A model generated the notes under the pieces. That model did no database searches. It was not told where the DNA came from and worked only from the letters and a program-made list of their open reading frames with translations. A stretch of 64,000 nt of DNA from Tetradesmus obliquus. Taxonomy: Eukaryota > Chlorophyta > Chlorophyceae > Sphaeropleales > Scenedesmaceae. The position numbers and the translations under genes are program-made. The stretch lies in assembly GCA_030272155.1 (NCBI GenBank), contig CP126191.1, positions 1,882,501 through 1,946,500 of the forward strand. The letters run 5' to 3'. This document shows, piece by piece, positions 1 to 64,000 of this stretch; within the stretch, counting starts at the first letter, position 1; the number at the start of each line of letters is the position of its first letter.

Positions 1-266
1 GTAGAGCTGGCCCACCACGTTCATGGCGCCCTTGCTGAAGTTGAGCGTGATCGTGATCTGGTCCTTACCAAGATAGTTGTCGTGGAACACCTGGCCGCAA
101 ACATCGGACACGGGTAACAAACAAACATTGGATCATTGTGATGGATGCGAAGCGCGTACCACTGTAGCAGCTAACCTCGCTGTCTGGAGAACCAGTTGGC
201 GGCTAGCTCATCCGCCAATGCAGAACACATTCAGGCCACCGGCAAGGCACTTGCAACTCACAGCAA

Positions 267-321
<55 letters not shown>

Positions 322-511: not shown

Positions 512-2280
512 TATTCTTGTTGAACCAGTGGTGCAGCAACATCAACAACCCAGCCTGCTGCGCAGCCTGCCCGCTGCTGTTTCGCCTCACCACTTCATGC
601 CTGGGAACACAGAGGGCGTCAATGTGCAACGACCCAACCTGCTGCATTGCCACCCAAGGGTGCTGCCGGCAGCCTGCCTGCTTACTACCTCTGCTAACCA
701 CTTTATGTCTGGGAGGAAGAAGGGTGCCATTGTACAACTATCCAGCCTGCTGTAATGTCACCCAAGAATGCCTGCCCGCTGCTTTGTCTCACCACTTCAT
801 GTCGCGGACCACGCAGGGCGCCATTGTGCAACCACCAAAGCTGCTGCAATGTCACTCAAACTCCCCCTCACCACTCACCACTTCATGTCTGGGAACACGA
901 AGGGCGCCACGAAGCCGCCGCTGGCTGCGTCCACGTGGATGCACAGCTGCCAACCGGTCTCTTCATTCTTGGCAGCCACCAGCGAGTCAAGCTCCTCCAC
1001 ATCATAGAAGTGGCCCTGCAGCAGAGGTGAAGTGTGCACAATTTGTGAGTGGTTTGTGAGCGACACAGGGCATGCAGGAGGGTGATTGACTTGATGCGCA
1101 TTGCACAGTATGCTGGTGTGGTGGAGGTAAATCTTTACATGCCTGCGCTTGTGTGTCTCAGTGCATTGTTGCTGCTGCTGCTGCTGCTGCTGCCAGCTGG
1201 TTGCTGGTGAGGTGCTGCCGCCAGCAGGGCAGCGTGCATCTGCGCATGTGCATGTTCATGCTGCTGTGCAAGACACGCTGCAGCTGCTGTACATACTAGT
1301 GCTGTGGCGCGCCACAACTCACTGTGTAGGTTGTGCCTAGGATCGCCACCACACCTGTTGGGAGGCGCAGGGGCAGGTGGCAGCAGCATCCGTAAGTGTT
1401 CATGGTGGAGCAGCCAACTGCCGTTGGACCACACCATGCGTCATCTGTGCCCGTCTGCGCACACAGCCGCTGCCGCAATGCCCAAGCGTGGCAACCAGCA
1501 TGCAGTGCGTCATGCTGCTGCAGGCAGTGGCATAAGCTGGTTGCGTCAGCACAGCTGTATGCGGGGCCTATGGCCATGCTGTTGTCAGAGCAGTCCAAAG
1601 AGACGCAAACGTAATAGGCTGTGTGAGACGTTACACAAAGAGTTGACCGACCGCATGTACATTCCTATGCCGGCTGCTCACCGATGGTGTTCTCATCACA
1701 TGCAGCAATGAGGTCCTCATTTAATGCGTGGTAGTGCCCTGGCCTGTTGGTCACCCACTGCACACAGCAGGCAGCAGCAGGCAGCGCCAGCAGTTGCTCT
1801 CTAAGCAGTTCGCCAGGCTTACTACAGCTGTCCAGCTCCAAACATTGCTTGCAAGTGGACATGCATGCGCAGCGGTGACACGACTGTGTGAAGTCAGCCG
1901 CCAACACTTGGTCTGCCAGTTCTTTGTTGCAGCAGCTCACCTTTGGCTCGATCTCAAAGTACCTCGTCAGCTTTTCCCACACCTGCAGCGAAATGACAAT
2001 ACACAAGTGCACATGGGTGCAAGGGATCAAGTATGACAGGGGCACATGCCGCACTGTTGCAGCTGCTGCTGCCAGCCACTGACAGTGTGTGGGGGCTCAC
2101 ACCGTAGAGCCGCGTCCAGTTCCCCGACACCGTGTTGCATGCGGGCTGCACCGCGTGCATACCACCATCTGCTGGCCCGCTCACCTCCCAAAGCCTCGCT
2201 GCTGCGCTGTCGTTGCTGCCGCTGTCGCTGCTGCCGCTGTCGCTGCTGCCGCTGTCGCTGCTGCCGCTGTCGCTGCTGCC

Positions 2281-2335
<55 letters not shown>

Positions 2336-2518
2336 ACTCACCACGTGCGTCTCCGTGCCCATCACGATGTTGGGCCGGCTGGCGTTCAGCCCCGCCGCCT
2401 TACGCCTGTCCTGCCAGCGCCGCTTCATGGCAAGGCCTGCCAGCAGCACTGCCTCGCTGCTGCCCACAGTGTCAGTGCCGGTGGCCTTGGAGGCGCCGAG
2501 GTCTGCAGAAAAGTTGGT

Positions 2519-2558
<40 letters not shown>

Positions 2559-3556: not shown

Positions 3557-3592
<36 letters not shown>

Positions 3593-5217
3593 TGCTGCTG
3601 TCGCAGTGCGCACACAGCCCCTGCAGCCGCTGCGGCCACATGTCAGATTAACAACACCCATGCGCATGTCACAACAGCATCCACAGCCGTGTGCCCCCGC
3701 TCACTCGGGCTCCATGAAGGTGGTCACGAAGGAGGCCAAGTTGAGGCGTTGCGTTTGCTCATCTGCTTCCAACACTGTAACCAACAACACAACACACCAC
3801 AACAGCACTTGGACTCCTCTTGCGCACTCACTCGGGCTCCATGAAGGTGGTCACGAAGGAGGCCAGGTTGAGGCGCGGCGTGGCGTCAAGGTTGCGCAGG
3901 CCCTGGATCTGCGAGGCCGCCATGCGCGGCTCAATGGAGCGCTGCGGGAACTTGCTGGCGTCAATCGCCTCCCACCTGAGGACAGGTAGGTAAATCTATA
4001 TAATAAGTGTAGCACTTTGACTCGTGTTACGATTGTGATGTGGTGTGTGGATGTGCAAAATGTGCAGCGACATGCGTGGTGCTCCCAGCAGCTGCGTCAC
4101 TAGCTGGCTAGCGGCTAAGTGTTGCTGCTGCGGCATCCACATCTGCAAAGGGGAGCTGCTGCTCATGCAGCTGCACAGGAGTCGAGATGAAAGACAATGT
4201 GTGACACAGGTATGGGCAGGAGGGCGGCAGCAGAGCTTGCATGCCATGCATGCCATGATGGCAGGGCGGGTGACTCAGCAGCTGCAGGTACCCGACTGCT
4301 GTGCTGCATGCTGATGCTCCTAGAGCTGTGTGTAGCGCGTAAGTTGGCAATGATTGATTTACTTGTGTTTGATCAGCATGGTGAAAGTATATGCTGGCAG
4401 CATGTTCACGGAACGTAGTAACTCACAAGAACCGTGGGATGCAGAGCCCATCGACGCCACCATTGCTTGCATCCGCGCACGCCATAATGTCTATCAAAAA
4501 CTTGATGGTAAAGCGCACAAGCAGGCGCGCACGGAACGAAGCAGCAAGTCAAGCTTGGAGGAGCTGGGTGTTGCAAAGCAACTTGCCGTATTTCACAGTT
4601 CAGGACAGCTATGCGCCTGATAAAAGGCGCTAGTATCCGTCAATGGCATAACAGTGCCCATTACATGGGAAGTTACCCAACGGTCAGGGTTGAATCAAGG
4701 ATCCTGTCATCAGAAGGGTGCGATGACGGATGCCTGGTAACAACCCTAGGTGGTGCAACATGCACAGGTACTCAGAGATTGTTATTTTGCATGTTGCTTT
4801 GAAGTAAGAACTGAACAGCCACGGGCGGAGCATGAGAGGAAGTCAGTCACCGTACTGCTGTCGCCACGCTCGGGGTTGCGGCTGCATCCAGGCGTATGCT
4901 AGGTACATTGTAGATGGTTCAACTCATATTTCGAGTGAGCATGCTAATCGAACGGCTGCAACTCACTGATAACTCGTCTGGCTGGTGTCACTGGTGCCAT
5001 GTACAGCCAGGGCGGGTGGCACCAGCAGCCTGAGTCTGATATATTCTGGCGCCTGCCATGTGGGGGACTTCACAACTTTAAAAAGCCAAAAGACGGGTTC
5101 AAGATTACACACATACCAACCTTTATAATCAACGCTGATGGTGCTGCCGCCAGCAGTGCCAGTGCGGGCCGGGCAGCTGGCATTGCCACGGGCCACGACG
5201 GTCTGGAGTGACTCCAT
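1..5217 (-). CDS. GAD: Glutamate decarboxylase, PLP-dependent (C-terminus outside window)
   Basis: Converts L-glutamate to GABA and CO2, normally a cytosolic PLP enzyme. Exons by homology and phase: 5117-5217, 3832-3975, 3217-3253, 2752-2833, 2342-2502, 1941-1982, about 1682-1740, 1323-1354, 879-1015, 332-449 and <1-90. Family landmarks read in order: [15 protein letters not shown] (exon 2), [10 protein letters not shown] (exon 4), [14 protein letters not shown] (exon 5), [12 protein letters not shown] (exon 6), CDENTIG then [10 protein letters not shown] (exons 7-8), [14 protein letters not shown] (exon 9), and [15 protein letters not shown] (exon 10), whose Lys codon at 401-403 should carry PLP. 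Exon 11 gives [12 protein letters not shown]. The start at 5217 ([11 protein letters not shown]) is inferred: its GTATGT donor joins exon 2 in phase. The joint between exons 6 and 7 does not close in phase, so a microexon there is probably missed. Any calmodulin-binding tail lies beyond base 1. Family assignment is very secure; the first exon is moderately so. Confidence 0.9.
270..320. repeat. CAG microsatellite
   Basis: An uninterrupted CAG run in the GAD intron between exons 10 and 11. A second run at 452-508 abuts the acceptor of exon 10 (CTG on the coding strand), acting as the intron's 3' tail. Confidence 0.95.
585..835 (-). repeat. Three decayed copies of the 3' edge of GAD exon 9
   Basis: Within the intron after exon 9, about 585-640, 695-745 and 788-835 each resemble the exon-9 end around 879-930. 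Each keeps the donor side (caccacttcatg on the plus strand) followed by a degenerate version of the FVFPDMKW coding stretch, spaced about 90-110 bp apart. Seen directly by eye; percent identity was not computed. Confidence 0.75.
2206..2333. repeat. 15-bp minisatellite merging into a CTG tract
   Basis: About five units of ctgctgccgctgtcg run directly into an uninterrupted CTG run, inside the GAD intron just after the exon 5 donor. The gradation from a 15-mer to a pure triplet suggests slippage growth from one seed. Confidence 0.9.
3146..3170 (-). repeat. Copy of the 3' edge of GAD exon 3
   Basis: The 20-base core tgctcacgttgactgcgatg occurs here and again at about 3210-3229, where it spans the donor of the 37-nt exon 3. 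The offset is 63 bp. This is a short copy of an exon edge placed downstream in the next intron. Confidence 0.7.
3698..3752 (-). repeat. Copy of the 3' edge of GAD exon 2
   Basis: About 50 bases including the donor and the coding stretch for [15 protein letters not shown] are repeated almost perfectly from 3826-3880, offset about 128 bp. The copy keeps a usable GTGAG donor but has no complete exon. It lies inside intron 2. Confidence 0.85.
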
Positions 5218-6229: not shown

Positions 6230-9200
6230 TCATGCCATACGCCTTCCCAGGTTGATTGTTAGACCAAGCTTCTTGACGCCTGTGCTGCTGCTGCCAGGTG
6301 CTGCAGGCGCTCCTGCTGCTGCTGCTGCCCCAGTCGCTGCCTGCTGCACGGTTGCACCGCCGCTGCAAGCCGCAGACACAAAGGTAGATGGCATGTTGAC
6401 AGCTGCCGGCTTGTTTGCGGCAATGCGGTCAAACACCTTGCCTCCGATAATGCGCCCAAGCTTCAGGCCATCTGCATTTGCGCTTGGGAAATGCACGCCG
6501 CCAAACGTGCGGGAGTCCCCTACCTCCTGAGCAGCAGCAGTAAGGCTGCTGTAGCTGCGATTGAGCCAGGGGGCGCCCTCGGATGTGAGGGTGAATGTAA
6601 CACTGTCTTTGTTGTTCAGCGTCCTGAGCAGCACCTCCAGAACAGCGCCGACAGTCGCCTGAAGGGCAGAGCAGAAGCAGCAGCAGCAGCAGCAGCAGCA
6701 GCACAGCACGCGATCAATGGTGTTTCTCGTACTGATGCATGCATAACAGCAGCGACTTTAGGCATGGTCATGAAGAGGCTCTCAGGCCACAGCGCTGGCA
6801 GCTGTCACTGCCCGCCACAGCTGCTGCAAGTGCCGCACTTGATGCAGTTGACTGCATTAGTGGCTTCACCGCTGCCAGCCTGGCATCTTCAAAAGGCCCA
6901 CACTGCCTGCAGCTGTCAGTGCAGATTGCAGTTCCCGCAAGTGCCGCACTTCAAAGTGCATCAGTGATGCATGTGACTGCATTTGTGGCTTCACTGCTGC
7001 CAGCCTGGCATTGGACAGCCCACCTGGTGTCCACTGGGGTACTCAGGGTGTGGCGGCGTCCTCAGCAGCGGCATCCAATCTGTTGCTGCTGCTGCTGCCG
7101 CTGCTGCTACTGGCACACCCGGGGCGCCCTGCGCGAAGGCAGTGATGGGCCGCCAGTGCAGCATGGAGTACTTGACCTTCCAGCCCGCAATGGATGCGTC
7201 GTAGCTGGCAGCGCCGGCACGCGCAAAGAACAACGCAGAGTCGGCGACAGAGTAGTCCTGGGGCAGCACCTGCAGCAGACACCAGATTGCATGGGTTTGG
7301 TTGGTCCGTGTATGTGGCACGTACCGGATGGCGCGCTGCTTCTGCTCACCAAAACATGGCTGTGTATGCAGTGTTCTGCTTTACCAACATACTTAAGCGA
7401 ACACAAGCCAGTTTTGGTGTATGCATTGCAAAAAATCCTTGAAGGTTGTACACGACAGTGCTGATGTGTCTGCCAAGAACAGTGTGATGGTGTTGGTGAG
7501 TGCAGTAATGCAGGTGGATGTGCTGGCGGCTGCTGCTGATGATGCAGCTGGTGTAGCCGCACCTCTCGTGAGATGTCCAGCCATGCGCCTGCAATGCCAC
7601 TGGTGTTGGCGCCTGCAGCCCAAAAGAAGGCCGAGTCTGCGGCGCGACACAGACAGCAACACCACCAGATGAGGGAGCCAGCAACAGTTCAGTGATACTC
7701 TTTTGTGTTGTCTTTAAGTCTAATGCAGTGGTGCCAAGCAGCGTGGCAGCAGCAACATCTGCCACAACATGATCAGCACAAACAGCTGCGCGAGTCAAAC
7801 TGCCACAGGCGGTGCCACCAGATATGGTGCGGCTACAGCCGTCATGCATCTGCTGTGGAGTGGTGGGCTAGCCGGCTGGCTGGCTGGCCCACCTGTGTCA
7901 TACTGCTTGCGTGTCTTGCTGGCCTTGCTGCCCAGCTCGTAGGTCTGCGCGTAGTCGTCCTTGGCGGGCTGGAACACAGGGCCCGCGCTGGCGTCCTGCG
8001 GCGGTGACAACTGATGCAGCACGTTGCTTCACTGTATAAAAGGCAGGGCCATTGGCTCAGCTTGACAATCCAGTGATATGACCACGACTCATCAAGCCGC
8101 TCTATGTGGCTATGTTCATTTGCGATAACCCTATGCGTAAGCGCAGCAGTGCATGTTGCTGCAGGTAGTCTTCAAAACCCGCTGAGCTTGTACGCCAGCA
8201 CAGCACATTACTCATTCTTGGTAAGTCATGCCAGGCGTGCTGTGTACTGCCGGCACCTGCCAATGGCTCAAGGCTGCAGCAGCACACCTTGTTGTATGCC
8301 ACGGCATCCACCTGCTGCTGCGGCACGATGAGCGGCGTGGTGTCAGCCAGCTGCGGGTACAGCGCAAACTTCTGCTCCGGCACAAACTGCCCACAGCAGC
8401 AATTGCAGCAGCAGCAGCGGGGCTATCAGCGAGGAGTGCTGCGGTTTGAGCGCACAGTGTGGCCGCTTTGGCTGCGTGGCATGCCTGCATTCTGAACACA
8501 CGAGCTGCCAGCAGTGCCGCTAAGGCACATGCTGCGCATGAAGCGCAGGCGGTGGGGCGGGCAGACTGCATCAGAAGACACCATCACCTGAGCAACATAC
8601 ATCCATAAGCAACACACATCCATAAGCAACATACATCCATAAGCAGCATACATCTCTGCCATCTGAGTGTATTGCGCCATACAGGACGGCCGTTGTAATT
8701 GTTGATGCTGCTGTCTCACCTGGTAGGCGAACTTGGTGCCTGGTGCTGCTGGCTTGAAGTCTGACAGGCTGGTGCTCTCATCAGCGGCCCTGCAGCATCA
8801 TTTACCAGCACAGCAGGCCAGCCGAGTGATGGATGACGCGCCATGTGTGTGTTGGCGTGCATGGCTGGGTCACCGCTTAAAATGTACTGCACTGCTGCAT
8901 CTCTGTGCAGCAGGGACTTGCGGCATAGAGGCAGCCAGCTAAACTAACTGGTGATCTCCACCGACGACTCGCAAGCGTACATCAGATGGAGGGGCCAGCA
9001 GCTGTCTGTCATGGCAGCAGTGGAATGACAGTGCTGCCACATCATAGCCCCTACCTCTGCTGCAGCATGGCCCTTGCAAGCGGCACAGCCACCGCGTTTG
9101 CTGCCTGCCGCTGGTCTGCAGGCACTGCCATCAGCTGCTTCCTAAGCAGCATGTCCCACATGGGCTGACGCGCACTGCACAGGACGAAAACAGCAGCATA

Positions 9201-14172: not shown

Positions 14173-17100
14173 AGCAGCTTGCCGGCATCCCTGCCACCCA
14201 GAGCTGCCCATGCTGAGATGTTTTTGCTTGCACAACCACAGAGCTCTGCACTGCAAACCGTGTGCGATGTGTTGGTCAGCGTCTGCCTGCATGTTTGAGT
14301 GGCGAATTGCAGGCGCCACGCACCCTCCACTTGAGCCACGGCAATTTTTTGGTGCAAGCACTGCCCACCGCCTGTTTTCTTTCCTGCAGGGGTACTGCTG
14401 GGAGCAGGCAGCTTCGGCAGGTGGGCTTGCTTGCAGGGTGTGGCTGGGGAACAACGTGTCAACTGCACCCAGTGCTACTAGTTTATATATCACCCTGTCC
14501 CTTGCCAGCTGTCAACAGACGGCTGACTGCTGGCGTAGCTTTGCACAGAGTAAAGCTGTAACCTTCCTAGCAGCATCTGCGGTGCTGCGCGCATACACTG
14601 CTTGTCAAAATCCTGCTCTTGCTATGCGTCTGCAGGGTGTACCGCGGCAAATGGCACTCGAATGATGTGGCAATAAAAATTATGTCAACCAGCCCTGCAG
14701 AGCTGCCAAGGGTTTTGAAAGAAGCAGAGATCATGATCGGCCTGCAGCATGACAACATTGTGCGCGCACTGCACTGCATGGTGGTGGACAAGCAGGCAGC
14801 GCTGCACGGCAGCGGCATGCCTGCTGCTGAGTGCAAGGTGCGGCTGCTGCACTTCTGAATCCTGCATCGCTAGGCTTCTGCCACATCGTTTGGTTCGATT
14901 GTACTGCAGCAGCGTCCTGGTTTACAGTAGTGGTCGCGTGGGTGCTGTGCAAGCCGCCCAAATGGTCCTATTCCTGCACGCTTCATGGATGATATAACGT
15001 GTGCAGCTGTGTGTCACATGTCTTTGTTTTGCTGTGTGCGGAGTGCAAGGTGCGGCTGCTGCGCTGCTGGATCCTGCACTGCTACGTTTTAGCTGCCTCA
15101 TTCTTTCTATCGGTGCTGCAGCAGCGCCCTGTTACACAGGACTGGTTACGCGGGTGCTGTGTAAGTCGCCCAGTTGTCATTTTGCTGCCACTCCTTGTGG
15201 ATGAATTAGTGTGTGCGGCTGTGTTACACATGACTGTATCGTGCTGTGTGCGTGCAGGGCAGCGTCAGCGACAGCTGGCAGCTGCGTCACGGCAGCCACA
15301 GCAGCACTCCGGCTGCTAGCTCTGGGGATACTGCTGCTGCTCAGCCGCAGCAGCATGCAGCAGCAGCAGCAGCCGGCTCTCACTGTGCTGCTGTCAAGGG
15401 TCAACCGCTGGGACACCAGCCCAGCAGCTGCAGCTTCGGCGTCGCCGCAAAGACACTCCCTCATGCTGCACATCAGCCTGGACGACCGGCCTCGCAACAT
15501 CAGCAGCAGCAGGGGCACGATCAGCAGGAGCAGCAGCATCTGCAGCAGCAGCAGCATTCACAGCAGCAGCAGCATTCACAGCAGCAGCAGCAGAGTAGGA
15601 GCTTGTCTTGGTTTGGCAGCGGCAGCCTCGGCAGGCTTGGCAAATCTGGCAGCCTCAGCAACAGCAGCAGCAAGCTGGCAGCTGCCGTCAGGGGCTTCCT
15701 GCACAACAGCAGTGACGCAGCTGCTGTTGGTGCTCCTGCTGCCGCTGCTGCCGCTGTTGACAAGGACATTGCTGCATCAACCACCAACAAGGCACCTGAT
15801 ACAGGACAACAGCAGCAGCAGCAGCAGCGGCAGAAGAGGAGGGACTCCAAGCACGTTGAGCTGCCTCCTTCAGGGAAAGATGAGCTGCTGACGTACCCCG
15901 GCTCCAGCGCTGCTGAGCGCACGCCTGAGAGGGAGGAGGTGGAGGTGAGTGTGCGCGCCTTGCAAGTCGACCTGCCAAGTCTGCAGCTGCATGAGCTTGT
16001 CATGGCTGATCTCTTGCTTGAAGTGCCGGCTAATCAAGTAGGAAGGGAACTGAGGAGGTGTGTGTGCACCCTGCCTTGTCAGCCTGCCTGCTGAGCCTGC
16101 TGCGGGTACATGTGTGTGCTGCTGGCCACGGCCTTGCGATGCTTGGAGCTGTGATTTATCCTGCGTGTGGGCCTGTGCAGGTGTGGCTGGTGATGGAGCT
16201 GCGCGGCTGCAATCATGCGCCCACCACGCATGCACCATGTGCTAAATTACTGCTTTCAAAATCAGGTTGCCGTCACGTGGGCCTGCTGTAGGTGTGGCTG
16301 GTGATGGAGCTGTGCGGCTGCAACCATGCGCCCAGTACGCATGTGCCATTAGCAGACATTACTGCTTTCAAATAAGCTTGCCGTAACGTGTGCCTGCTGC
16401 AGGTGTGGCTGGTGATGGAGCTGTGTGGCTGTGGCACGCTCAAGGAGGCGTATGGCACGCCGCGTGACACCATGGCCATGGCGCGGCTGGTGTCACGACT
16501 GCTGGAGGTGGCACAAGGCATGGCCTTCCTGCATGCCCACAGCGTGCTGCACGGTGAGCTGCGCTGGCGCTGGCCCTGCTGCTGCTGCTGATGATGATGC
16601 TGCTGCTGCTGAGGTGCATGCTGAGGTGTTTGTGAGCGTGACAAGATGGCCTGGGTCAATGCATAACATGTGTGCTTTATGCATGCAGATGGTGCGCCAC
16701 TGCGCACACAGCTGGATGTTAAGCATGTTGCTGCTGCTGCTGCTGCTGCTGTCTGCAGGGGACTTGAAGGCCGCCAATGTGCTGCTCAAGAGCACCATCT
16801 ACAGCAGCTTTGGCCAAGTGAGTGGCACCTGCATAAATGCGCAGTTGTGCACCTCACTGCGATGCAATTGGTACCTCAACCCTTCACTGCATCTGTGCCT
16901 CATCGGGGCGGTGTGCCAACTCAGTCCATCCTCAGCCCCCTGTCATACGACACATCTACAGTGTGCCAGCTGTGAAACCCGCCACCTGCATTCACATCAC
17001 GACATTTTGCACCGTTATTTGTTTGCTATATGCTTGTTATTCCTGCAGGTGTCGAAGATCAGCGACTTTGGGCTGGCGTCGCGGCTGCTGGACGGCGCCA

Positions 17101-17662
17101 CGCACCGCAGCACGCAGACCACCGGCACCATCAGCCACAGCGCGCCCGAGGTGCTCACCACGGGCCGCATGAGCCCAGCAGCAGACGTGTACTCCTTCGG
17201 CATCATGAGTGAGTGGCAGACGGACAGGCGCCGTCTGCCTTGGTGCAATAGCCGTTATGGTGCTGACTTGTGCACGGTGCCAGTGCCTTCAATCACAGTG
17301 GTGTGGCCATGCCATGAATACCTGCTGTAGAGCACTACTTTTGGCGTGCAAGCCGCGGTGCTTGCTGCTGCCGGCAGGGGCCGCTTGCAGCCGCAGCAGC
17401 TCTGTCTTAGCCCATGTCTACCTGACGCCACTGCCAAACTGCACCAGAACATCACTGTGCCTGGTGCCATTGCTGCTGCTACAGTGTGGGAGCTGTTCAC
17501 GGCCTCCTCCGCCTTCAAGGGCCATTTTAACAGTGATGCTGAACAGCACACTGCCTTGCATTGCTGCTGCTGCCGCTGCAGCTGCAGTGTGGGAGCTGTT
17601 CACGGCCTCATCCGCGTTCCAAGGCTACTGCGACAGCTGACACCATACATCACACTGCCCTG

Positions 17663-17713
<51 letters not shown>

Positions 17714-19169
17714 TGCAGTGTGGGAGCTGTTCACGGGCTCTTCTGCCTTCAAGGGCCACTTTGGCAACGTGGTGCAGCGCGTGGTGGCGGGCGAGCGCCC
17801 GCCGCTGCCTGAGGAGGCGCCCGAGGAGTACTCCCTGCTCATGACCAGCTGGTGCGCGCTGCTGCTGCTGGTGGTGGTGGTTGGGAATGTTTGTGCGTGC
17901 TGCTGTTGTGTTTGTGTGCTGCCTTGCCTGAGGAGGCGCCAGAGGAGTACAACCTGCTCATGACCAGCTGGTGCGTGCTGCTGCTGCTGCTGCTGCTGGT
18001 TGGAATTGTCTGTGTGGTGTTGTCGTGGCTGCATGCTGCCTTGCCTGAACCTGCATGACCAGCTGGTGCGTGCTGCCGCTGCTGCTGCTGCTGCTGGTTG
18101 GGAATGTTTGTGTGTGCTGGTGTTGCGTTTGTGTGCTGCCTTGCCTGAGGAGGCGCCTGAGGAGTTCAACCTGCTCATGACCAGCTGGTGCGTGCTGCTG
18201 CTGGTGGTGGTGGTTGGGAATGTTTGTGTGTGCTGCTGTTGTGTTTGTGTGCTGCCTTGCCTGAGGAGGCGCCCGAGGAGTACAACCTGCTCATGACCAG
18301 CTGGTGCGTGCTGCTGCTGGTTGTGGTGGTTGGGAATGTTTGTGTGTGCTGCTGTTGTGTTTGTGTGCTGCCTTGCCTGAGGAGGCGCCAGAGGAGTACA
18401 ACCTGCTCATGACCAGCTGGTGCGTGCTGCTGCTGCTGCTGCTGGTTGGAATTGTCTGTGTGGTGTTGTCGTGGCTGCATGCTGCCTTGCCTGAACCTGC
18501 ATGACCAGCTGGTGCGTGCTGCCGCTGCTGCTGCTCCTGCTGTTTAGGAATGTTTGTGCGGAATGCTGTTGTGTTTGTGCTGCCTTGCCTGAGGAGGTGC
18601 CCGAGGAGTACACCTTGCTCATGACCAGCTGGTGCGTGCAGGACTGCTGCTGCTGCTGCTGCTCCTGACACATGTTGTTATTTGTTCTTGGTGCCCTGGT
18701 TTTGCATGCTGCCTTGCTTTGCGTTGCAGCCCACAGCCCACAGGAATGCACGCAAGCGACGCAGTACTTGCCCGTGCATCCATATAAATGCAATACAATC
18801 TCACTGTGAACACTGCTGCTGACCAGCATCACATTGCTGTCGTTGCGTGCTGTTGCCTGCTGTTGCTGTTGCCGCAGCTGGTGTGCAGACCCGCGGCAGC
18901 GGCCCTCATTTGAGCAGGTGGTGGAGTGCCTGGGGCTGATGCTGCAGAGCTTCTGCCACCTCACACAGGAGCTGGCAGTGCTGCCAGAGGCAGCAGAGGC
19001 GGCGGGCGAGGAGGGCACTGCTGCTGCTGCTGCTGCTGCAGGCAGCGGCGGTGGGCTAGGTGCTGTGGAGGGCCTGGCAGTAAAGCAGCAGCAGGGAGTT
19101 GGGGGTTCAGGGTCGGGCTCTGAAAGGAGGAGGGTCTTGGCAGAGTCGCGGCATGTGCAGGACCTGTGA
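11619..19169 (+). CDS. Receptor-like protein kinase, TKL class, with HGDLK catalytic loop
   Basis: Predicted about 909 aa from exons 11619-11804, 12091-12125, 12355-12524, 12866-12947, 13009-13332, 13636-13777, 14056-14132, 14390-14420, 14636-14837, 15258-15944, 16403-16553, 16759-16817, 17049-17208, 17719-17851 and 18879-19169 (TGA); phases agree throughout. A signal peptide (ALVVLLLFLAPFWAAAA) is followed by a Cys-containing ectodomain of about 240 residues with N-glycosylation sites (NFT, NIT, NTT), perhaps beta-helix-like. One membrane helix (GVVTAAAAGALLWWC) is followed by RRRRH, giving a cytoplasmic C-terminal side. The kinase has GAGSFG, VAIK, the alpha-C Glu, hinge VWLVMEL, HGDLKAANVLL, DFG, APE and DPRQRPSF. 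All catalytic residues are present, but Arg of HRD is Gly, so activation-loop control should differ from RD kinases. A Gln/Ser-rich insert of about 230 aa (15258-15944) splits the N-lobe before the hinge. The ligand is unknown. Confidence 0.9.
14826..15258 (+). repeat. About 215-bp tandem duplication covering the GAECK/GTGCGG donor
   Basis: The donor of the 14636-14837 exon and the following intron sequence recur from about 15046. Matching blocks include gagtgcaaggtgcggctgct, a shared gcagcagcg-cctg stretch and the tail ttg-tgctgtgtgcg. The second copy provides another donor ahead of the next acceptor at 15257. Confidence 0.75.
16170..16402 (+). repeat. Two upstream copies of the kinase hinge-exon acceptor and 5' edge
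   Basis: About 111-bp units starting near 16170 and 16281 each contain tgcag or tgtag followed by gtgtggctggtgatggagct, the same as the true exon at 16403. Both copies then read into GCNHAP instead of GCGTLKEA and meet a stop, so using either as the acceptor would truncate the kinase. Confidence 0.9.
17456..17718 (+). repeat. Two upstream copies of the subdomain-X exon acceptor and 5' edge
   Basis: Copies beginning 17485 and 17588 carry tgtgggagctgttcacgg plus part of the following codons, matching the real exon at 17719. They diverge after about 45 bases; the second reaches a TGA quickly. The true copy is preceded by a long CTG tract. Confidence 0.9.
17803..18640 (+). repeat. Minisatellite of eight exon-3'-edge copies (about 115-bp period)
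   Basis: The coding end of exon 17719-17851 (PLPEEAPEEYSLLMTS plus its GTGCGC donor) recurs near 17927, 18045 (partial), 18144, 18257, 18373, 18485 (partial) and 18584. Full copies keep cctgaggagg, the EEY codons, ctcatgaccagctg and a GTGCGT-type donor. Two partial copies share the same internal deletion, and the 17927-18045 pair is nearly identical to the 18373-18485 pair, showing that blocks of units have been duplicated together. Confidence 0.92.
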
Positions 19170-36753: not shown

Positions 36754-36790
<37 letters not shown>

Positions 36791-41094: not shown

Positions 41095-44000
41095 TGGCTG
41101 CAGCACATCGCAGCCTCCCAGCAGCTGCATCACTGTATGATGTCCTGGCTGGAAGCAGCCACTACGCAAAAGCACAGTCTTCAGCTGCCTGCCACCACCA
41201 ACCTCACCATCGACCGCCCCTACACCTCTGCTGCTGCTGCTGCTGCTGCTGCTGCAGGTTACTCTACCAGCAGCGATGCTGCTACTGGCGCGTCCTCGAC
41301 TCAGCAGCTGCTGCTCAAGCTCCAGCTGCTTCCAAGCAGCAGCAGCCAGCAGCTTCGCCATAACATATGCTGCCTTGCCACCCCCCACAGGCCCTGCTGC
41401 TGCCAGCTCCTCAATTTCATCCAGCTGCAGCACACCAGGCGGCACTGACTGGCAGTGAAGCTCACTGCAAACTTCACACACCAGCTGCTGCATCGAGTGA
41501 CTGTGAACTTGATCATCACCAACGCTGTCTGCAGTTACGTCGGTATCCCATGCTGGCCCTTCTTCTTCTGCTGCTGTGACTTGTAGGTTGTCTGCCATCG
41601 CTGCAGCAGAACTAGAAATTGGTGCATCACCACCTGTCTGACTGACACCTACTGGTGCAGGCTGCCTTGCTTTACCAGCAGCAGCAGCAGTGTGCAGCCG
41701 CAGGTCTGCCTGCGCCTCCAGCACCGCCTGGTGCAGCCTCATGCTGCTGCAGCCGCCAGGCGCGGTCAGCAGCAGCTGCGGCAGCTGCAGCGCAGTGGCC
41801 TGCGGCAGCGGCACGCCCAGCCGCTCATGACGGCTCAGCATCTGCAGTCACGCAGTGCAGCATGCAGCAGCCGTAACATATCAAACATGCCTCATTTTGA
41901 AGAGCAGATGGTGTTCGTATCACAGCCTGCGTGGTGCTGCCAGGCACAACAGACATTGCGCGAGATCTCCCCAGTTGATCAGTGAGCTCTCCGCGCCATG
42001 CGACTGGAGGCTTCATTGAAACCAGCAGCCACCTAAGATGGTGACCATCATCACGTCATCACACATAACAGTTAATGCACATTCTGCAGACCATTTTCAA
42101 TGTGGCTTTCAGAATAATAATCTTACAGGTCATGCCATCGCCTCACCATGAGTGCTGCCGGGTGGCGCGCGTAGTGCTCCATCAGGTGGCTGCTCAGCTC
42201 ACGCACATCCAGCCCGGCAGCAGGGCCGGCCAGCAGGCAGGACCCAGCAGGGCCCAGCGGAGCGCATGCCCCTGCCGCTGCTGCTGCTGCTGCTGCTGCA
42301 GGCTCTGCTGCTACACCATCAGTGCTGCTGCTGCTGCTGCTGCTGCTGTTGTTGACAAGGTGCGCTGTTTCAGCACCGTGTGCGTGCAGATTAGCAGCAG
42401 GGCAGAGGTATGACAGTGCATGGCCCAGCTCATGGAGCAGCGCCTGCAATGCAGCAGGACCAGGCAGCATCAAAGGTGCCGGCTCCTCTGCCTGCTGCTG
42501 CTGCTGCCGCTGCACTGCCAGGTTGGCTGTGCTGCTTGTGCGAGTTACTGCTGTACTGCATTGCCCAAAGCCTAGCAGGGGCTTTGCTGTTGGGATAGGC
42601 AGCCGGATGATCACTGATCCAGGTGAGTAGGCTGGTTGTGATGCAGATATTTGTTGGCTGCTGCTGCTGCAGCAGCTGCTGCTGCTGCTGCTGCTGGGGT
42701 GGCCAGCTGGTGTGGGCAGCTGCAGCAAGCAGCAGGATGGAAAGCCCCAGCCTGCCACCAGCTCAATGAACACATGGCCAAGCAGCAGTGGCTGCTGCTG
42801 CTGCTGCTGCTGTTGCTGCTGCTGTTGGCAGTCTGCATCCAGCAGCACCAGATGCATCACATGCTCTCCCCAGGATTGTACACTACCACTGTGCTGCACT
42901 TGCTGTTGCTGCTGCTGTTGCTGAGGTTCGTCCAGTCTGCCAATCGGCTGTTTGCTGCCCACACCCCCAGCAGCAGCAGCAGCTGCTGCTTCACTGTCTG
43001 CTGGCAGCAGCCTAAGACCGCAGGTGGCAGCCAGCAGCCCATCAATGCGCTCAGTGAGGCCAGGCAGTGTGAAGTAAGGGGCCACATCCCGCGCCCAATC
43101 CAGGTCAGATAACTGCTGCGCCTGCAAGGGCGGGAGAAGTTTAAATTTACATCATGTGCAGCTCTCAGAATAGCAGGTGCTGTGCGCTTGCAGGCAGCAG
43201 CTGTTTGTACTTCATGATGTGCTGTGGGCATGGAATGCAAGCGCCTGCGTGGCTCACAACATTCTTGTCAACACTGGAGATCAACAGCAAACCATGCTGA
43301 CTTGCAACAAAAAAATAAAAGTAACACACCATGATTGTCACTTTATGCTGCCACTTTCGCCATGCTTGGCTCTCACTCACCACATCCTGTGTGGCATATG
43401 CCAGGTCCCACGGGTCCAGCTCAGCAGCAGCCTCCACCCACCTGAGCATAGAAAGTCACACAATAATATGAGATTACTCTCAAGTAGGGATACGTAACCC
43501 CCAGCAACACAGCCACAGGTGTCAGCCACTCTCTAACACCTGAACCTCGGGCAGCATGAAAGACAAGCAACACAGCCAGAGATTGCGTGCATTCCCGCAC
43601 CTGCCAGCTGCCCTGGCCCGCCTTGCTGCCAGCTGCTGTAGCTCTGCCAGCTCAGCAGCAGCATGCTGACTCAGCACAGGCTGCAGCTGAGTCAACAGGC
43701 CCGATGATTAGCTGGCACTGCCCACTCACCTGCCTGCTGCCCTGGCCCGCCTTGCTGCCAGCTGCTGCAGCTGTGCCAGCTCAGCAGCAGCATGTTGACT
43801 CAGCACAGGCTGCAGCTGGGCCAGCAGGGCTGCTGCTGAGGCAGGGCTGCCCAGGCAGCTGCCACACAGGATGAGGCCGGCATAGCTGGCGGCGCCGTGC
43901 TCGGCAGCCAGGTGGCGCCTGAGGTTTAGGATGACCGCTAAAACCTGCAGGAAATGCATGGTTACGTGTGGAGCGGTTGCAGAGCACGCAGCTGGGGGTG

Positions 44001-49108: not shown

Positions 49109-52100
49109 AGCAGCAGCAGCGGTTGCAACGGCAGCAGCAGCATGTCGGTGAGCAGCTGGGCAGGTGCAGCCGGCTGTGGCGACAGCAGTAGCAGCATGCT
49201 GGTGGGACAGCCAAGACAGCAGCAGCAGCAGCGGCAGCAGCAGCAGCAGCTGTGGCAACAGCAAGACAGCGGCAGCAGGCCCCCTTCAGCAGCCGGCGCA
49301 ACAGTGGCGCAGCCGGCAGGTGCACCGGCTGCACAGCGCAGGCCAGAAAGTGGAAGGGTTTTTCAATTGGCTTGGGGCCGTTTGGCCAGCAATGAAAGGG
49401 CGATAGGGGCGTAGCAGGGCAGGTGCCTTCAGCTTGCGCAGCAGAAGCACAGCATTCACCTGTTGCAGGTGCCATGAGCGGTCTGCAGCGCTAACATCGT
49501 CTCGAAGCCTGCTTGGCACTTGCCACGCTTCACACTGCCGGCTGCCACCTTGCTGCCGCTGCTGCTGCTGCTGCTGCTGCTCCAGGTGTCGTATGACACT
49601 GTGTGCAAGTAGATCACCAAGAACAGCGCTGAGAGCTAGAACCTCAACTGGATGTTGCTGCTGCTGCTGCTGCCGTGATGTCGCAGGTGTCCTGTGACAC
49701 GGTGCGCAAGTGGATCACCAAGAACCGCGCTGAGAGCGAGAACCTCAACATGATTTTGCTGCTGCTGCCGCCACCACTGCATCTGCCGCCGCTGCTGCTG
49801 CTGTCGCGCCGCAGGTGTCATGTAACACGGTGCGCAAGTGGATCACCAAGAACAGCGCAGAGAGCGAGAACCTCAACTGGATCCTGGCCAACACCAAGCC
49901 CTGCCCCAAGTGCCACAGGCCCATAGAGAAGAACCAGGGCTGCATGCACATCACATGCAGCCAGTGCAGGCACGAGTTCTGCTGGCTGTGCAACGGCACC
50001 TGGTCGGAGCACGGCGAGCGCACTGGAGGCTTTTACGCTTGCAACAGGTGCGGGCGAGCAGAGGGCTTCCGTGCTGTATGTATTGTCTAGAAAGTCTCAT
50101 GCGGCAAGCTGTGCAAGCATGCATGTGCTGCTCAAGTTGGCAGGCAGTAGTATAGCATCCGGGATGTGGGTTTGTGCATGAAGTGTTTCCTGCTGGTTGG
50201 GCCCTTGCTGCTGGTGCTGATGCACTGGCGGCACCCTTCTGCCCAGCTCCCCTTTGACCTCTTCGACCGCCTATCAACAGCATGCACCTTACTATCAATC
50301 TTGCTGGCTCTGCTGCCTGGCGGGCCGCAGGTACGAGGCTGCCAAGAAGACGGGCGAGTACGACGGGGAGCAGCGGCGGCGTGAGAACGCCAAGCACAGC
50401 CTGGAGCGCTACATGCACTACTTCGAGCGCTGGGACGCACACAACAAGGTGCGGCGGTTGATTCAAATACTTGACAGTGAGCCTAGTCACACGGAAAGAG
50501 GGTCGTCGTTGTGCGCTAGTGTGTGCTGCACAGGCGAACCATGTACAGCTGAGGTGCACGCAGCATGGCGTGGCAGCTGGCCCTTGTCTCCTGATCAGAA
50601 GCACGTACTTACGCCTGCTGCTGCTGTGCCGCTGCTGTCGTCCCTGCAGGCGCGCGACAAGGCCCGCAAGGACGCTGCTCAGTTTGAGGCGGAGAGCCTG
50701 GAGCAGCTGAGCGACATGACCAAGACGCCCACCAGCCAGCTCAAGTTCATCAAGGACGCGTGGCGACAGGTGCGGCGGGGGCACTGCATACGCACACTTA
50801 TTGCTTTGGCTTGTGCGCTCCTGCATATGTCCCACTCCGTATATGGGTGTTGTGTACCCTGGGTTTATCGCGGGGTGACAGAAGAGCGCGCAGCATGCAT
50901 TGCATGCATGCTTGCGCCTTGCTTTGCTGGTGCGGTTCCTGTTCGCACTCGGTATTTCTGATCCGCGCACAAGTTGTATTTTGCTGCTGACAGCCATGCA
51001 CATGCTGTTTCCCTGACGTCATTGCTGCTGTTGCTTCCCGCCACCTTGCTACTTCACCCGCTTTCTCCACGCCGCCAGGTCATCGAGTGCCGGCGCATCC
51101 TCAAGTGGACGTACGCGTACGGCTACTACAGCTGGCCGGACGAGGAGGACGCAGCCATGGGCCAGCGGCGGCAGTTCTTCGAGTTCCTGCAGGGAGACGC
51201 GGAGCGCATCCTCGACCAGGTGCGCACTGCACTGCCGAGTGGTTCTGCCAGACGGACAGACTGCACTTTGCATCAAGGGCCTGTCAGCAGGCTGCATGCG
51301 GCCTGCTCCTGATGCCTCCTCATCTCTGCTCCACTGCCGCTGCCACCCCTGCGTGCTGTCTGGGTTCCTCTGCTGCAGCTGCACGAGAGGGCGGACATGA
51401 AGCTGCGCTTGATGCGCGACAAGTTTGCACAGGCCTGCCCTCTGCTCACATTGCTCTGTCACCTGTCTTGCCGCACCTTATCTCTACAATGCAGCTGCAC
51501 GAGTGGGCGGAGATCGGCTGTGCACGCTGCGCGATGAGTTCGCTGCAGGTTTTGCTGGCGCCTGCTTACATCTTGCCATCTGTCCGCCTGCTGTTACCTT
51601 CCTTGCTGCACCTCCCTTCTTCTACAGCTGCACGAGTGGGCTGAGATGAAGCTGCGCACGCTGCGTGACGAGTTTGCGGAGGCTGGGCTCATCCCCGGGG
51701 AGCGCTTCCAGGACTTCCGCAAGCACCTCATCGGGCTGACCGACGTGACGCACGGCAGCTTCGACAAGCTGGTGGCGCAGCTGGAGCGCGGCTTCGAGGA
51801 CATGCACAAGTGAGCAGGAATCACACATGCAACAGCTCCTTTTGCCTATCAGTGTTGCCTGCGAGTGTTGGTTGCGAGTGTTGGTTAGTGGTGGTGTTAG
51901 TGCAGTGTTGTGGCTTTGGGGTGTTGCATCGGCTGCAGAAGGTGAGGATGAGGCGAGGTTGACGGTGTGCATTGACAGTACAGGCTGAGGATAGGGCGAG
52001 TGAGTTCCTTCGTGTGCAAGTGCATGGGTGGGCTGTTGAAGCGTGGGGTGGCAGCTTCGACAAGCTGGTGGCGCAGCTGGAGCGCGGCTTCCAGGACATG

Positions 52101-52717
52101 CACAAGTGAGACCAGGGGGATTGGGATTTCCTGGGTGATTTCACCCTGCACAAGTGATGTGGCAATGAGGGTGACGTCTAGGGTGACAGTGAAGTGGCTT
52201 GGGTGCAAGGAATGTGCTGTGGCACCAGGGGATGGGGCTGACATGGGGGTGATGGTGTGCCGGCAGGTGGAACTGCAGGTGTAAGAAGCTGGTTGACCAG
52301 CAACAATTCGACTGCTGTTTTCTGGCAGCACCCTCACCTCCTTCTCTGCTGTGCGCGTGCTATGCGCCGATTGCTGCTGCTGCTGCCTGCAGGCGCTACG
52401 CAGGGCAGCCAGCAGAGGACGAGGCAGGCAGCAGCGCGGCGGCAGCTGCAGCAGCAGCAGCCAACGGCGCAGGCAGCAGCCGTGCAGCAGCAGCCCGCGG
52501 CGGCGGGCGTGGTGGCAAGCGGGCACGCACGCGAGCAGCAGCAGCAGCTGGTGGGGGTGCTGCTGGCGCTGATGGTGTGGATGATGATGAGGTTGATCCA
52601 GTGACAGGCAACTTAGTGAGGGAGCAGGGCTTCTGGAAGTGCAACCACTGCACTGTGAACAACCTGGACCTAGCAGCTGACACGTGTGAAGTGTGTGGCC
52701 TGCCGCGGCCCGAGTAG
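46838..52717 (+). CDS. ARI: Ariadne-type RBR E3 ubiquitin ligase
   Basis: Twelve exons in phase give 623 aa: 46838-46945, 47032-47156, 47235-47340, 47976-48137, 48519-48645, 48947-49071, 49815-50047, 50331-50448, 50650-50769, 51079-51219, 51628-51809 and 52393-52717 (TAG). It starts with an acidic leader ([13 protein letters not shown]) and a UBA-like helical segment ([20 protein letters not shown]). RING1 is CMIC...[10 protein letters not shown]...CPLPDC, the IBR contains [12 protein letters not shown], and RING2 is [19 protein letters not shown]; the Cys at 49941-49943 is the expected catalytic residue that forms the ubiquitin thioester. The Ariadne helical domain follows ([17 protein letters not shown]), then a Gly/Ala/Arg linker and a C-terminal RanBP2-type zinc finger ([10 protein letters not shown]...CEVCGLPRP). 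Architecture and length match plant ARI proteins. Partners are E2 enzymes and possibly neddylated cullins, from family knowledge only. Confidence 0.95.
49586..49814 (+). repeat. Two upstream copies of the Ariadne RING2-exon acceptor and 5' edge
   Basis: Copies start at 49586 and 49687, ahead of the true exon at 49815. Each runs about 70 bases (cag then gtgtc-t-tgacac and the ITKN codons). The first has two in-frame TAG codons; the second is open and keeps [21 protein letters not shown] before diverging. Confidence 0.95.
51379..51627 (+). repeat. Two upstream copies of the Ariadne 51628 exon acceptor and 5' edge
   Basis: Copies start at 51379 and 51495 (cagctgcacgag followed by a degenerate version of [12 protein letters not shown]). 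The first is open for about 20 codons; the second carries indels. The true exon starts 51628. Confidence 0.92.
52046..52105 (+). repeat. Downstream copy of the 3' edge of the same Ariadne exon
   Basis: Sixty bases coding [18 protein letters not shown] with the GTGAG donor (51750-51809) are repeated with one change about 296 bp downstream. This exon is therefore duplicated at both edges. Confidence 0.95.
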
Positions 52718-58595: not shown

Positions 58596-58628
<33 letters not shown>

Positions 58629-61600: not shown

Positions 61601-64000
61601 TGAAGCAGCGCTTCGGTGTGCTTTGTTACTGCTTCAATTGGCAGAAAGCTGTTTGCTGCGATGTCCAGCATGCCTGCTCTACATAAGTAACTAGTGCCTC
61701 TGCAAGCTGAGTTGCTACTATTTCAAAAAAAAAACAGCGAGCTGATGTTGCATTGTATGCCGTTGCACCTCCTGCTGCTGCCGTCAGAGCACATGTGTGA
61801 GCGTCACTGCTGGGCGAGACGCCTGCGGCTGCATAGTCAGCGACCTGCCGCCCTTGGAGGACCTGCGCGTGCAGCGCGTGATACGCTTGGATGACCTGGG
61901 CAAGGTGCTCAGTAGGGGCACCAACCTGAGGTGCCTGGAGGTGACAGTAGACGCCAGTGCAGCCATGTCACTGGCTGCGGACAACATCGCCACGTTACCT
62001 TCCAGCTTGCGCGTGCTGGAATTGCTTGAAGATGGTTCACTTGACGATCAGCATAGCCCACACATTGCACGGAACTTTGGTGAGGTGCAGATGCAGCAAC
62101 TGCAGCACTTCAGTGGACGCCAGCGCAGCCATGTCGCTGACTGCAGAGAACATCGCCGCGGCATGCAACAGCCACAGTACTTCAAGCTTAGGCTGATAAA
62201 AGCGGCAAAGGTTTCAGATGCAATTTGTGAGCTGCAGGAGCTGCACACGCTGGACTTGGCGGGCTGCCACAGCCTACGTACACTGCCAGAACAGCTAGGA
62301 CGCTTGCAGCACCTGAAAAGGCTGGATCTGTCATGGTGCAACAAGCTGCAGGAGTTGCCAGAGTCGGTGGGCGACCTCAAACACCTGCAGCTGTTGAACC
62401 TGAGCAGCTGCAGCAGCTTGCAGTCATTGCCACTGTCACTTGGGCAGTTGCAGCAGCTTTTGAGGGTATGCTTCTTTCACTGCACCGGCTTGCAGTCGCT
62501 GCCAGAAACAGTAGGCGACCTGAAGCAGCTGCAGCACCTTGACTTCAACAGCTGCAGCAGTCTGCAGGAACTGCCAGCATCATTTGGCGGGCTACAGCAG
62601 TTGGTGCAGCTGGAGCTGAGTGCCTGCAGCAGCCTGCAGCTGCTGCCAGCGTCAATAGGCGAACTGCAGCAGCTGCAGCGCCTTACCTGTGCATGTGCAG
62701 CAGCCTGAAGTGCCTGCCAGCATCCTTTGGCAAGCTGCAGCAATTGCAGTCACTCACCCTGGTAGGCTGCAGCGGCTTCAAGACACTGCTAGAATCATTG
62801 GTAGGCGAGCTACATCAGCTGCAGTGGCTTGACCTGAGCTCGTGCAGCAGCCTGCAATGCCTGCCGGCATCCTTTGGCAACCTGCAACAGCTGGTGCAGC
62901 TGGACGTGCATAACTGTAGTAGCCTGCAGTCACTGCCAGACTCAATAGGTGAGCTGCAGCGGCTGCAGCAACTTGACCTGCGCATGTGCAGCAGCCTGCA
63001 GTGCCTGCCGGCGTCCTTCAGCAAGCTGAAGTGTTTGCAGTCGCTGTACCTAACGGGCTGCAGCGGCTTGGCGTCGCTGCCAGAATCAATAGGCGAGCTA
63101 CATGCGCTACAGCTGCTTGTGTTGCGGGAGTGCAGCAGCTTGCAGTGCCTGCCAGAATCATTTGGCAAGCTGCTGCTGCTATCGCAGCTGGACCTTGACG
63201 GCTGCAGCAGTCTGCGGTCGCTGCCAGAATCACTAGGGGGCCTGCAACGGCTGCAGCAGCTTGACCTGCGCATGTGCAGCAGCCTGCAGTGCCTGCCGGC
63301 GTCCTTCAGCAAGCTGAAGTGTTTGCAGTCGCTGTACCTAACGGGCTGCAGCGGCTTGGCGTCGCTGCCAGAATCAATAGGCGAGCTACATGCGCTACAG
63401 CTGCTTGTGTTGGGGGAGTGCAGCAGCTTGCAGTGCCTGCCAGAATCATTTGGCAAGCTGCTGCTGCTATCGCAGCTGGACCTTGACGGCTGCAGCAGTC
63501 TGCGGTCGCTGCCAGAATCACTAGGGGGCCTGCAACGGCTGCAGCAGCTTGACCTGCGCATGTGCAGCAGCCTGCAGTGCCTGCCGGCGTCCTTCAGCAA
63601 GCTGAAGTGTTTGCAGTCGCTGTACCTAACGGGCTGCAGCGGCTTGGCGTCGCTGCCAGAATCAATAGGCGAGCTACATGCGCTACAGCTGCTTGTGTTG
63701 GGGGAGTGCAGCAGCTTGCAGTGCCTGCCAGAATCATTTGGCAAGCTGCTGCTGCTATCGCAGCTGGACCTTGACGGCTGCAGCAGTCTGCGGTCGCTGC
63801 CAGAATCACTAGGGGGCCTGCAACGGCTGCAGCAGCTTGACCTGCGCATGTGCAGCAGCCTGCAGTGCCTGCCGGCGTCCTTCAGCAAGCTGAAGTGTTT
63901 GCAGTCGCTGTACCTAACGGGCTGCAGCGGCTTGGCGTCGCTGCCAGAATCAATAGGCGAGCTACATGCGCTACAGCTGCTTGTGTTGGGGGAGTGCAGC
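57823..64000 (+). CDS. NB-ARC-LRR (NLR) protein with N-terminal acylation motif; runs off the window
   Basis: Exons in phase: 57823-58398, 58638-59062, 59424-59635, 59924-60350, 60641-61469, then a long LRR exon from 61788. The chosen start gives MGGLCCKEP, a canonical N-myristoylation Gly2 followed by two palmitoylation-type Cys; an in-frame ATG at 57733 would bury it. Next come a Gln/Gly-rich spacer and about 210 residues that look like an alpha-helical bundle (WQALGQTASTLLSAGSTL, SLLGYAIKQWS, LLQCCRDMLFDL), reminiscent of HeLo/RPW8/MCAfunc domains by pattern only. NB-ARC motifs: P-loop GMGGAGKTT (60001-60027), kinase-2 VLLVVDNV, RNBS-B SRVLFTSRN, GLPLAL and an MHD-like VHD (61167-61175). 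LRRs are 24-residue plant type (L-x2-L-x-L-x2-CSSL-x2-LP). A one-base loss near 62684 shifts the frame; LRRs stay open in the new frame to base 64000. Likely an intracellular immune-type sensor, by analogy. Confidence 0.88.
57880..58112 (+). repeat. GGGCAG hexamer array and CAG tract in NLR exon 1
   Basis: Repeated ggggcagggg units encode Gly-Gln repeats, followed by a CAG run (58081-58112) coding poly-Gln. They form the spacer between the acylated N-terminus and the helical region. Confidence 0.9.
61265..61430 (+). repeat. Degenerate 22-codon tandem repeat after the NB-ARC domain
   Basis: Three to four imperfect units of the form CPPPPGSEQ-x4-Q-x2-I lie between the MHD-like motif and the LRR exon. 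Period is about 60-66 bases. Confidence 0.85.
61948..62160 (+). repeat. Internal duplication in the NLR LRR exon
   Basis: About 50 bases coding VDASAAMSLAADNIA (61948-61995) recur at 62113-62160 with about seven changes. The second copy is read in another frame by the continuous ORF, giving a non-LRR stretch, so an unrecognised intron or an old indel is likely here. Confidence 0.75.
62961..64000 (+). repeat. 288-bp near-identical LRR array (3.6 copies in window, continues)
   Basis: Units start 62961, 63249, 63537 and 63825. Unit 1 differs from unit 2 at about two positions; units 2 and 3 look identical. Each unit is 96 codons, exactly four 24-residue LRRs, so copy number can change without breaking the frame or the solenoid register. 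Upstream LRRs (62230-62960) are much more diverged. Confidence 0.97.

Follow-up and report, generated by a model that had tools for sequence, protein, structure and literature searches.

The duplication of short stretches of DNA at or near splice junctions has been described as a source of new introns. In a potato gene, one duplication across a splice junction made a new intron (PMC4974935), and in Drosophila novel introns have arisen where coding sequence containing a proto-splice site was duplicated in tandem (PMC2891723). In rice, break repair leaves tandem, partly tandem and non-tandem short duplications whose source lies within ~200 bp (Vaughn and Bennetzen, 2014, as cited in PMC7407515). 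Here, we describe exon edges that recur, splice site included, as short copies in the adjoining introns of genes in a 64,000-nucleotide (nt) stretch of the genome of the green alga Tetradesmus obliquus (hereafter the window; CP126191.1, positions 1882501-1946500, on contig C1 of a 17-contig, 104.66 Mb assembly). Such exon-edge copies are real and spread over the genome.

As in the potato case, the duplicated segment in T. obliquus spans a splice junction, brings its own splice signals and in part ends up non-coding; however, a single new intron was formed in potato, whereas in T. obliquus existing introns gain decoys, in many genes and mostly at a distance from the source (PMC4974935). The Drosophila introns are alike in that exonic sequence is duplicated and one copy is then lost to the intron, but they are new introns at proto-splice sites, while the T. 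obliquus copies stand at existing exon edges (PMC2891723). In fact, intron number is unchanged by the copies in GAD and Ariadne, the two genes checked, and intron gain by the AGGT model, in which a new unit-length intron forms between the copies, was rejected for these two, since each has its copy within a single longer intron and a protein that skips it. The rice break-repair duplications resemble the T. obliquus copies in being short, local and in part non-tandem, but an exon-edge preference is not stated in the accessible account of them, and in T. obliquus intron-only copies are rare (PMC7407515). Stwintrons and complex introns also hold extra splice signals within introns; they are, however, introns within introns that are removed stepwise, whereas the T. 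obliquus decoys are half exons with one splice site (PMC8469720, PMC7138796). The ingredients are known and isolated examples exist elsewhere; what is unusual is to see so many in one sample of a genome. Among the literature matches listed, from a search that did not reach most subscription papers, density, exon-edge bias and spacer are absent and genome-wide exon-edge copies are unreported.

The genome was sampled in seven places amounting to 304 kb, namely the window and 240 kb from contigs C2, C3, C4, C5, C8 and C14. Local matches, defined as those less than 2 kb apart with simple repeats masked, were 352 direct versus 10 inverted, and clustered into 115 families, of which the window holds 24 and the other samples 91. 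A lax classification gave 66 exon-edge, 27 exonic, 13 intronic, 7 intergenic and 2 mixed families, so that exonic duplications outnumbered intronic ones despite selection. A strict edge rule, under which a predicted exon had to measure 60 nt or more and to reach 15 nt or more past the copied stretch, with no less than 25 nt of exon shared, left 53 families with any partner and 39 with a partner that was at least 80% non-exonic; the 13 intron-only rows became 10 once three of them (29385 and 6787 in the window, 1242 in the C8 sample) had been merged into other families. When units of these lengths were placed at random on the gene models with duplications removed, the edge fraction was 0.41 (0.406), and against this null edge families were in excess over intron-only ones both with a non-exonic partner (39 vs 10, p=3e-8) and with any partner (53 vs 10, p=1e-12). 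The same holds for the window alone (10/12, p=0.003, and 12/14, p=0.0007, respectively) and for the young subset, in which 22 (non-exonic partner, p=1e-4) or 33 (any partner, p=7e-8) edge families stand against 7 intronic ones. Furthermore, plain tandem duplication was simulated (900 events of graded age, exons under constraint, copies free, the BLAST step unchanged), with 0.12 indels assumed for each substitution and ages spread uniformly; the expected edge fraction was 0.38, versus 39/49 or 53/63 observed.

The edge and intronic rules were fixed after the 304 kb had been viewed, and models were frozen only for a held-out set of 20 kb from C10 and C16, which was kept out of training and analysed with the non-exonic-partner rule. 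There, 17 families comprised 11 edge, 1 non-exonic, 1 exonic and 4 others, that is 11 edge versus 1 non-exonic against a null of 0.30 (p=1.7e-5). Edge families occur in six of the seven sampled places; the C2 block has none, its 9 families being 8 exonic and 1 intronic. The C5 block is the densest, with 22 of the 53 any-partner families, and when it is excluded 31 (any partner) or 26 (non-exonic partner) edge families remain versus 8 intron-only. The proposal, made in the initial annotation of the window, that many events across the genome had enriched duplicates at exon edges is therefore borne out. Within these samples, C16:1500001-1510000 is very rich in edge copies (9 of 14 families are exon-edge in 10 kb), and the glutamate-cysteine ligase (GCL) gene of the C5 sample (block 789-5470) has five duplicated exon edges in the strict-rule set, a number exceeded in that block by just two very long predicted genes.

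Exons were predicted from sequence alone, without RNA, by a gene finder self-trained on the 304 kb; early ab initio models over-called exons, and retraining with stricter penalties gave usable ones. The benchmark was checked exon by exon on the Ariadne model only, where 9 of 12 exons were exact among 17 predicted, with a nucleotide sensitivity of 0.97 and a specificity of 0.85, and where one of the 12 (14 nt, drawn by hand) was an error, absent from T. obliquus protein P0002. Several decoys are called exons by the gene finder, for example at 52055-52105 in Ariadne and also in PurU and GCL, a confusion that makes the copies relevant to annotation. In the gene with leucine-rich repeats, one spurious predicted intron was removed by hand before the families were classified. 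The strict rules also drop some families that are real by eye, such as the SNF2 array at 36451-37019, left out because the gene finder calls the array an exon, and, in the set of 39, the Ariadne pair at 51754-52110.

The side on which copies lie is as regular as their position. In all 39 families with a non-exonic partner, and in all 11 held-out edge families, copies of donor edges lie downstream and copies of acceptor edges upstream of the true exon, with none in the opposite arrangement, just as had first been noticed in the window; the 39 divide into 23 donors and 16 acceptors. With any partner, 53 families are on the expected side (5 of these on both), and 5 are on the other side only, three of which (window 36451, C4 24520 and C5 14484) are, by our own reading, decoys called exons. 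Unfiltered predicted boundaries are less tidy, with 58 donor-down, 50 acceptor-up, 35 acceptor-down and 31 donor-up, the last two groups including arrays and decoys called exons. Copies of the exon interior alone form just 3 families. On the gene models used, then, where a source spans a junction its copy sits in the neighbouring intron and the model uses the outer of the splice sites; some loci carry arrays.

The shape of the copies is not that of a plain head-to-tail unit. Spacing in edge families ranges from 83 to 296 and is at most 151 in 38 of 53, while 22 of the 23 two-copy edge families have a shared part (38-138 nt) that falls short of 0.9 of the spacing, as do 9 of 9 at an identity of at least 88%; among simulated young tandem edge duplications the same is true of 17 of 121. 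The direct tandem duplication to which the copies had been attributed at the outset is not supported by these pairs. Clear spaced cases are found in the C8 sample (38/38 identical), Ariadne (60/61) and GAD (94.5%), and, in a genome search that skipped simple repeats and very common words, the Ariadne spacer 51815-52049 and the GAD spacer 3755-3826 matched only themselves, the copied Ariadne segment having two matches. Multi-copy families, for their part, in many cases align head-to-tail beyond one unit. Within arrays, the spacer has diverged to the same degree as the exon-derived copies (0.856 vs 0.854; unrelated sequence aligned in the same way gives 0.71, and the spacer alignments are rich in gaps, with 385 gap columns vs 1383 aligned), which gives no sign of a very fast turnover of introns as the cause of the spacers. 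The shared part in recent pairs often stops 5-9 nt inside the intron, but a sharp copy end at the splice motif was not significant against random ends (9/26, p=0.15). Introns are longer where they hold donor-edge copies (median 403 vs 258, p=0.02), the difference not being significant for those with acceptor-edge copies (352 vs 262, p=0.22).

Once made, the redundant copy and its decoy splice site decay, on the gene models used, near the neutral rate. In 80 exon edge/copy pairs, the best per boundary, differences amount to 0.123 at codon positions 1 and 2 (632/5121), 0.196 at position 3 (501/2554) and 0.227 in the aligned intron (740/3257), with an intron to positions 1+2 ratio of 1.84; an exon under constraint compared with a copy that decays neutrally should show just this, position 3 lying somewhat above positions 1 and 2 and the intron at roughly twice their level. 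The 24 pairs with the closest exon match (at least 0.9, with at least 20 nt of intron aligned) give 0.036, 0.107 and 0.200, respectively, and a ratio of 5.5, which we treat as selection on low exon difference, although some constraint on the copy or conversion would also fit. The decoy dinucleotides are intact in 36 of 43 donors (GT, 33.2 expected) and 30 of 37 acceptors (AG, 27.0 expected), and the spacing modulo 3, at 14, 22 and 18 of 54 boundaries, is without codon bias. Protein P0002 joins Ariadne exon 51628-51809 straight to exon 52393 (HK/RYAGQ), skipping the copy at 52050-52110, and residues 50-68 and 247-283 of the GAD protein P0122 each match both exon and decoy on the window, the protein having each once. 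Judged in this way, the copies look like mostly neutral decoys, with no sign of decoy use in the GAD and Ariadne proteins; of the decoy or alternative splice sites originally suggested, the decoys stand, while the alternative sites are unsupported, though some low-level use may occur.

The reading we prefer, and to which we give an even chance, is an exon-biased local copying by template switching during replication or repair, in which the extra copy is hidden by splicing. Throughout the T. obliquus genome, a mutational process that draws mostly on exonic sequence would make short (~40-140 nt) local copies on the same strand and place them ~85-300 nt off. Through template switching in replication or in the repair of breaks, the copied patch would be re-inserted nearby, often with a spacer, so that a copy would be born as a short local patch set deeper into the intron rather than as a plain head-to-tail duplication, and arrays would represent later growth by unequal exchange. 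Purifying selection would clear copies that land in exons unless they are in frame, and splicing would hide those that cross a junction. The copies are indeed short, local, on the same strand, often spaced and of varied ages, as break repair with template switching predicts. The excess of edge over intron-only families is observed, and its cause, most simply, may be that exons are the preferred source, which would give few intron-only copies and many exonic duplications.

Several points weigh against this reading. Exon-biased copying alone leaves unaccounted for the splice site present in nearly every copy that lands in an intron, and copy-and-paste should make copies of the exon interior common in introns, yet they are rare. 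The equal divergence of spacer and exon-derived copies in arrays means that fast intron decay cannot rescue an explanation by visibility alone. A microhomology signature was not established by eye at the listed breakpoints of pairs with an exon identity of at least 0.85. Flanks are weakly similar (p<0.05) in 6 of the 22 spaced two-copy families and in 3 of 9 at an identity of at least 88%, and some spaced pairs may therefore be degraded full-unit duplications; over all 42 rows tested (one event counted twice) nine reached p<0.05, with about two expected by chance, and in the remaining spaced two-copy families this test detected no spacer homology. The birth of copies is read from one genome.

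Some of these observations are what random tandem duplication would leave, that is, units of ~100-150 nt duplicated anywhere, of which only junction-crossing or intronic ones survive and exon-anchored ones stay recognisable longer. One junction-crossing tandem duplication is known, in potato (PMC4974935), intergenic units near 110 long also occur here, and both the head-to-tail multi-copy families and the weak flank similarity of some spaced pairs fit. We nevertheless hold it unlikely, and it is already strained, because the simulation gives an edge fraction of 0.38 against 39/49 or 53/63 in the sample and 11/12 in the held-out set, the young sets show the same skew towards edges, and the spaced two-copy cases far exceed those among simulated young edges. 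Doubtful, too, is a process linked to splicing or transcription that copies exon edges with their splice sites into adjoining introns genome-wide, each event being tied to splicing or to transcription pausing, for example through breakage at junctions or through templating by a piece of pre-mRNA, with the splice site included by the mechanism itself. Such a link to the junction would make both intron-only and exon-interior copies few, as they are (10 and 3 families versus 39 that span junctions), donors and acceptors are both hit, and the ends 5-9 nt inside the intron would agree; however, the clustering of these ends is not significant, RNA templating is conjectural, and splice strength barely differs between duplicated and other edges (median donor scores 6.98 vs 6.36, p=0.036; acceptors 8.22 vs 6.90, not significant at p=0.09). 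An idea based on R-loops was dropped as unsupported, the contrast in base composition between exons and introns being small.

Selection for functional alternative or regulatory splice sites could be read into the GT or AG that is intact in 66 of 80 copies, but neutral decay predicts a close 60.2, codon positions 1 and 2 are unprotected in the copies, the spacing ignores the reading frame, the GAD and Ariadne proteins skip the copies and one of the two upstream copies at Ariadne 49551..49882 has stop codons, which makes this explanation very improbable. Errors of assembly or polishing, or merged haplotypes, are more improbable still, as the copies span 100% to ~65% identity with a codon-position bias like that of evolution, and form ordered arrays, in the same direction on several contigs. 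Finally, introner-type intron gain occurs in some green algae, and remains of such mobile introns, or of transposons, might be suspected here; we find this barely credible, given that the two spacers searched genome-wide matched themselves alone and that what the copies share in the cases displayed comes from the exon at that place and not from an element common to them all. When 13 spacers were compared with the 304 kb sample, many of the matches listed were to simple repeats.

Provided that the sample is typical, simple scaling of 39 to 53 families per 304 kb to 104.7 Mb gives ~13,000 to 18,000 edge families, and T. obliquus would be a natural laboratory for intron lengthening, the origin of cryptic sites and the way in which the spliceosome ignores a near-identical neighbouring site. 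Were copying linked to splicing, it would lengthen introns and steadily supply cryptic splice sites, and the birth of splice sites in this lineage would be due to a junction-specific mutational mechanism rather than random mutation. The strict direction of the copies, their excess over intron-only ones and the spacer make their origin testable.

In the window itself, self-BLAST (matches less than 3 kb apart, E<1e-3) gave 65 direct and 5 inverted local matches, which after masking of simple repeats and clustering formed 14 exon-edge, 6 exonic and 4 intronic families. All 14 edge families fall in the genes that the initial annotation had named, with 2 in GAD, 3 in the kinase, 2 in the SnoaL-like gene, 3 in SNF2, 1 in the MIP-like gene and 3 in Ariadne, and the related case it saw in the haloperoxidase is wholly intronic. 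Its count of about 30 copies was a fair one, a hand tally giving ~27 non-exonic copies, and the differing ages it reported are evident in identities from 60/61 in the youngest down to ~65-70% in the oldest. The families are listed in the table.

Table. Duplicated exon edges, and one related intronic duplication, in the window (window positions)
Gene	Position	Strand	Feature
GAD	546..1015	-	Donor edge of exon 879-1015 (exon a 100% match to P0122); decayed intron copies at ~546-859
GAD	3700..3975	-	Donor edge of exon 3832-3975 (50 nt + gtgag); copy 3700-3754, 94.5%, spacing 127
Haloperoxidase-like gene	6787..7011	-	Intron-only duplications adjoining donor of exon 7024-7269; related case, classed intronic
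Kinase	16167..16553	+	Acceptor edge of exon 16403-16553; copies upstream at 16167-16320
Kinase	17461..17762	+	Start of VWELF exon (true start near 17713, by eye); two copies upstream
Kinase	17806..18661	+	Donor edge at 17851 (..MTSW/GTGCGC); array of five downstream copies
SnoaL-like gene	21139..21434	-	Old copy (66.7%) of last predicted exon in 3' flank
SnoaL-like gene	22299..22594	-	Donor edge of exon 22546-22812; copy 22299-22360 (85.5%)
SNF2/RAD5-like gene	29302..29599	+	Donor edge at 29355; copy 29543-29599
SNF2/RAD5-like gene	35871..36136	+	Acceptor edge of exon 36084-36231; two copies upstream
SNF2/RAD5-like gene	36451..37019	+	Acceptor-edge array (..CAG/GGTTCTGTTGAGGAGCGC..) ahead of true exon start near 36978 (by eye)
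MIP-like gene	43598..43863	-	Exon edge duplicated, spacing 129, 85%; sole two-copy case without spacer
Ariadne	49551..49882	+	Acceptor edge of exon 49815-50047; two upstream copies, CAG ends at 49585 and 49686
Ariadne	51369..51683	+	Acceptor edge of exon 51628-51809; two copies upstream
Ariadne	51754..52110	+	Donor edge of exon 51628-51809 (56 nt + gtgag); 51754-51814 vs copy 52050-52110, 60/61 identical

In the kinase array at 17806..18661, the match of the last copy takes in just 28 nt of intron sequence. The SNF2 case at 29302 continues into the intron as a separate match (29385-29501 / 29641-29761), so that part of the spacer is duplicated as well. As for the identity of the genes, Pfam matches were obtained for GAD, the kinase, SNF2/helicase and Ariadne, although the scanning of exons one at a time left part of the SNF2 and Ariadne scores under the cut-off. 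Matches for SnoaL and haloperoxidase (PAP2) fell short of the cut-off, and the Pfam scan of the MIP-like gene gave no match. Scanning of whole frames recovered the stronger domains only, and four genes of the C4 and C5 samples matched Formyl_trans_N, Mito_carr, GCS2 and SelR. P0122 was taken as the GAD protein encoded by the window, 7 of the 13 pieces listed by tblastn being 100% identical. The Ariadne model (46838-52717) is 99% identical to the published T. obliquus protein P0002, which differs at several residues, and the strain of the window appears to differ from the one behind that record.

Other features of the sampled sequence lie apart from the exon-edge copies. On C14 at ~1.38-1.50 Mb and on C15 at 3.51 Mb there are loci that are ~99% identical, several of them ~33-36 kb apart on C14, which suggests a recent segmental repeat or a mobile element; the paralogous C14 loci are too alike to calibrate intron evolution. 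At 57900-64000 on the forward strand, the window holds a gene with 24-residue leucine-rich repeats, of 72-nt period, whose 288-nt higher-order unit is amplified towards the window end, ahead of which lies what we take to be an NB-ARC-like nucleotide-binding region. Throughout the window, very many CAG/CTG runs are present in exons and introns (158 tandem-repeat rows), and they give rise to long open frames in several frames at once.

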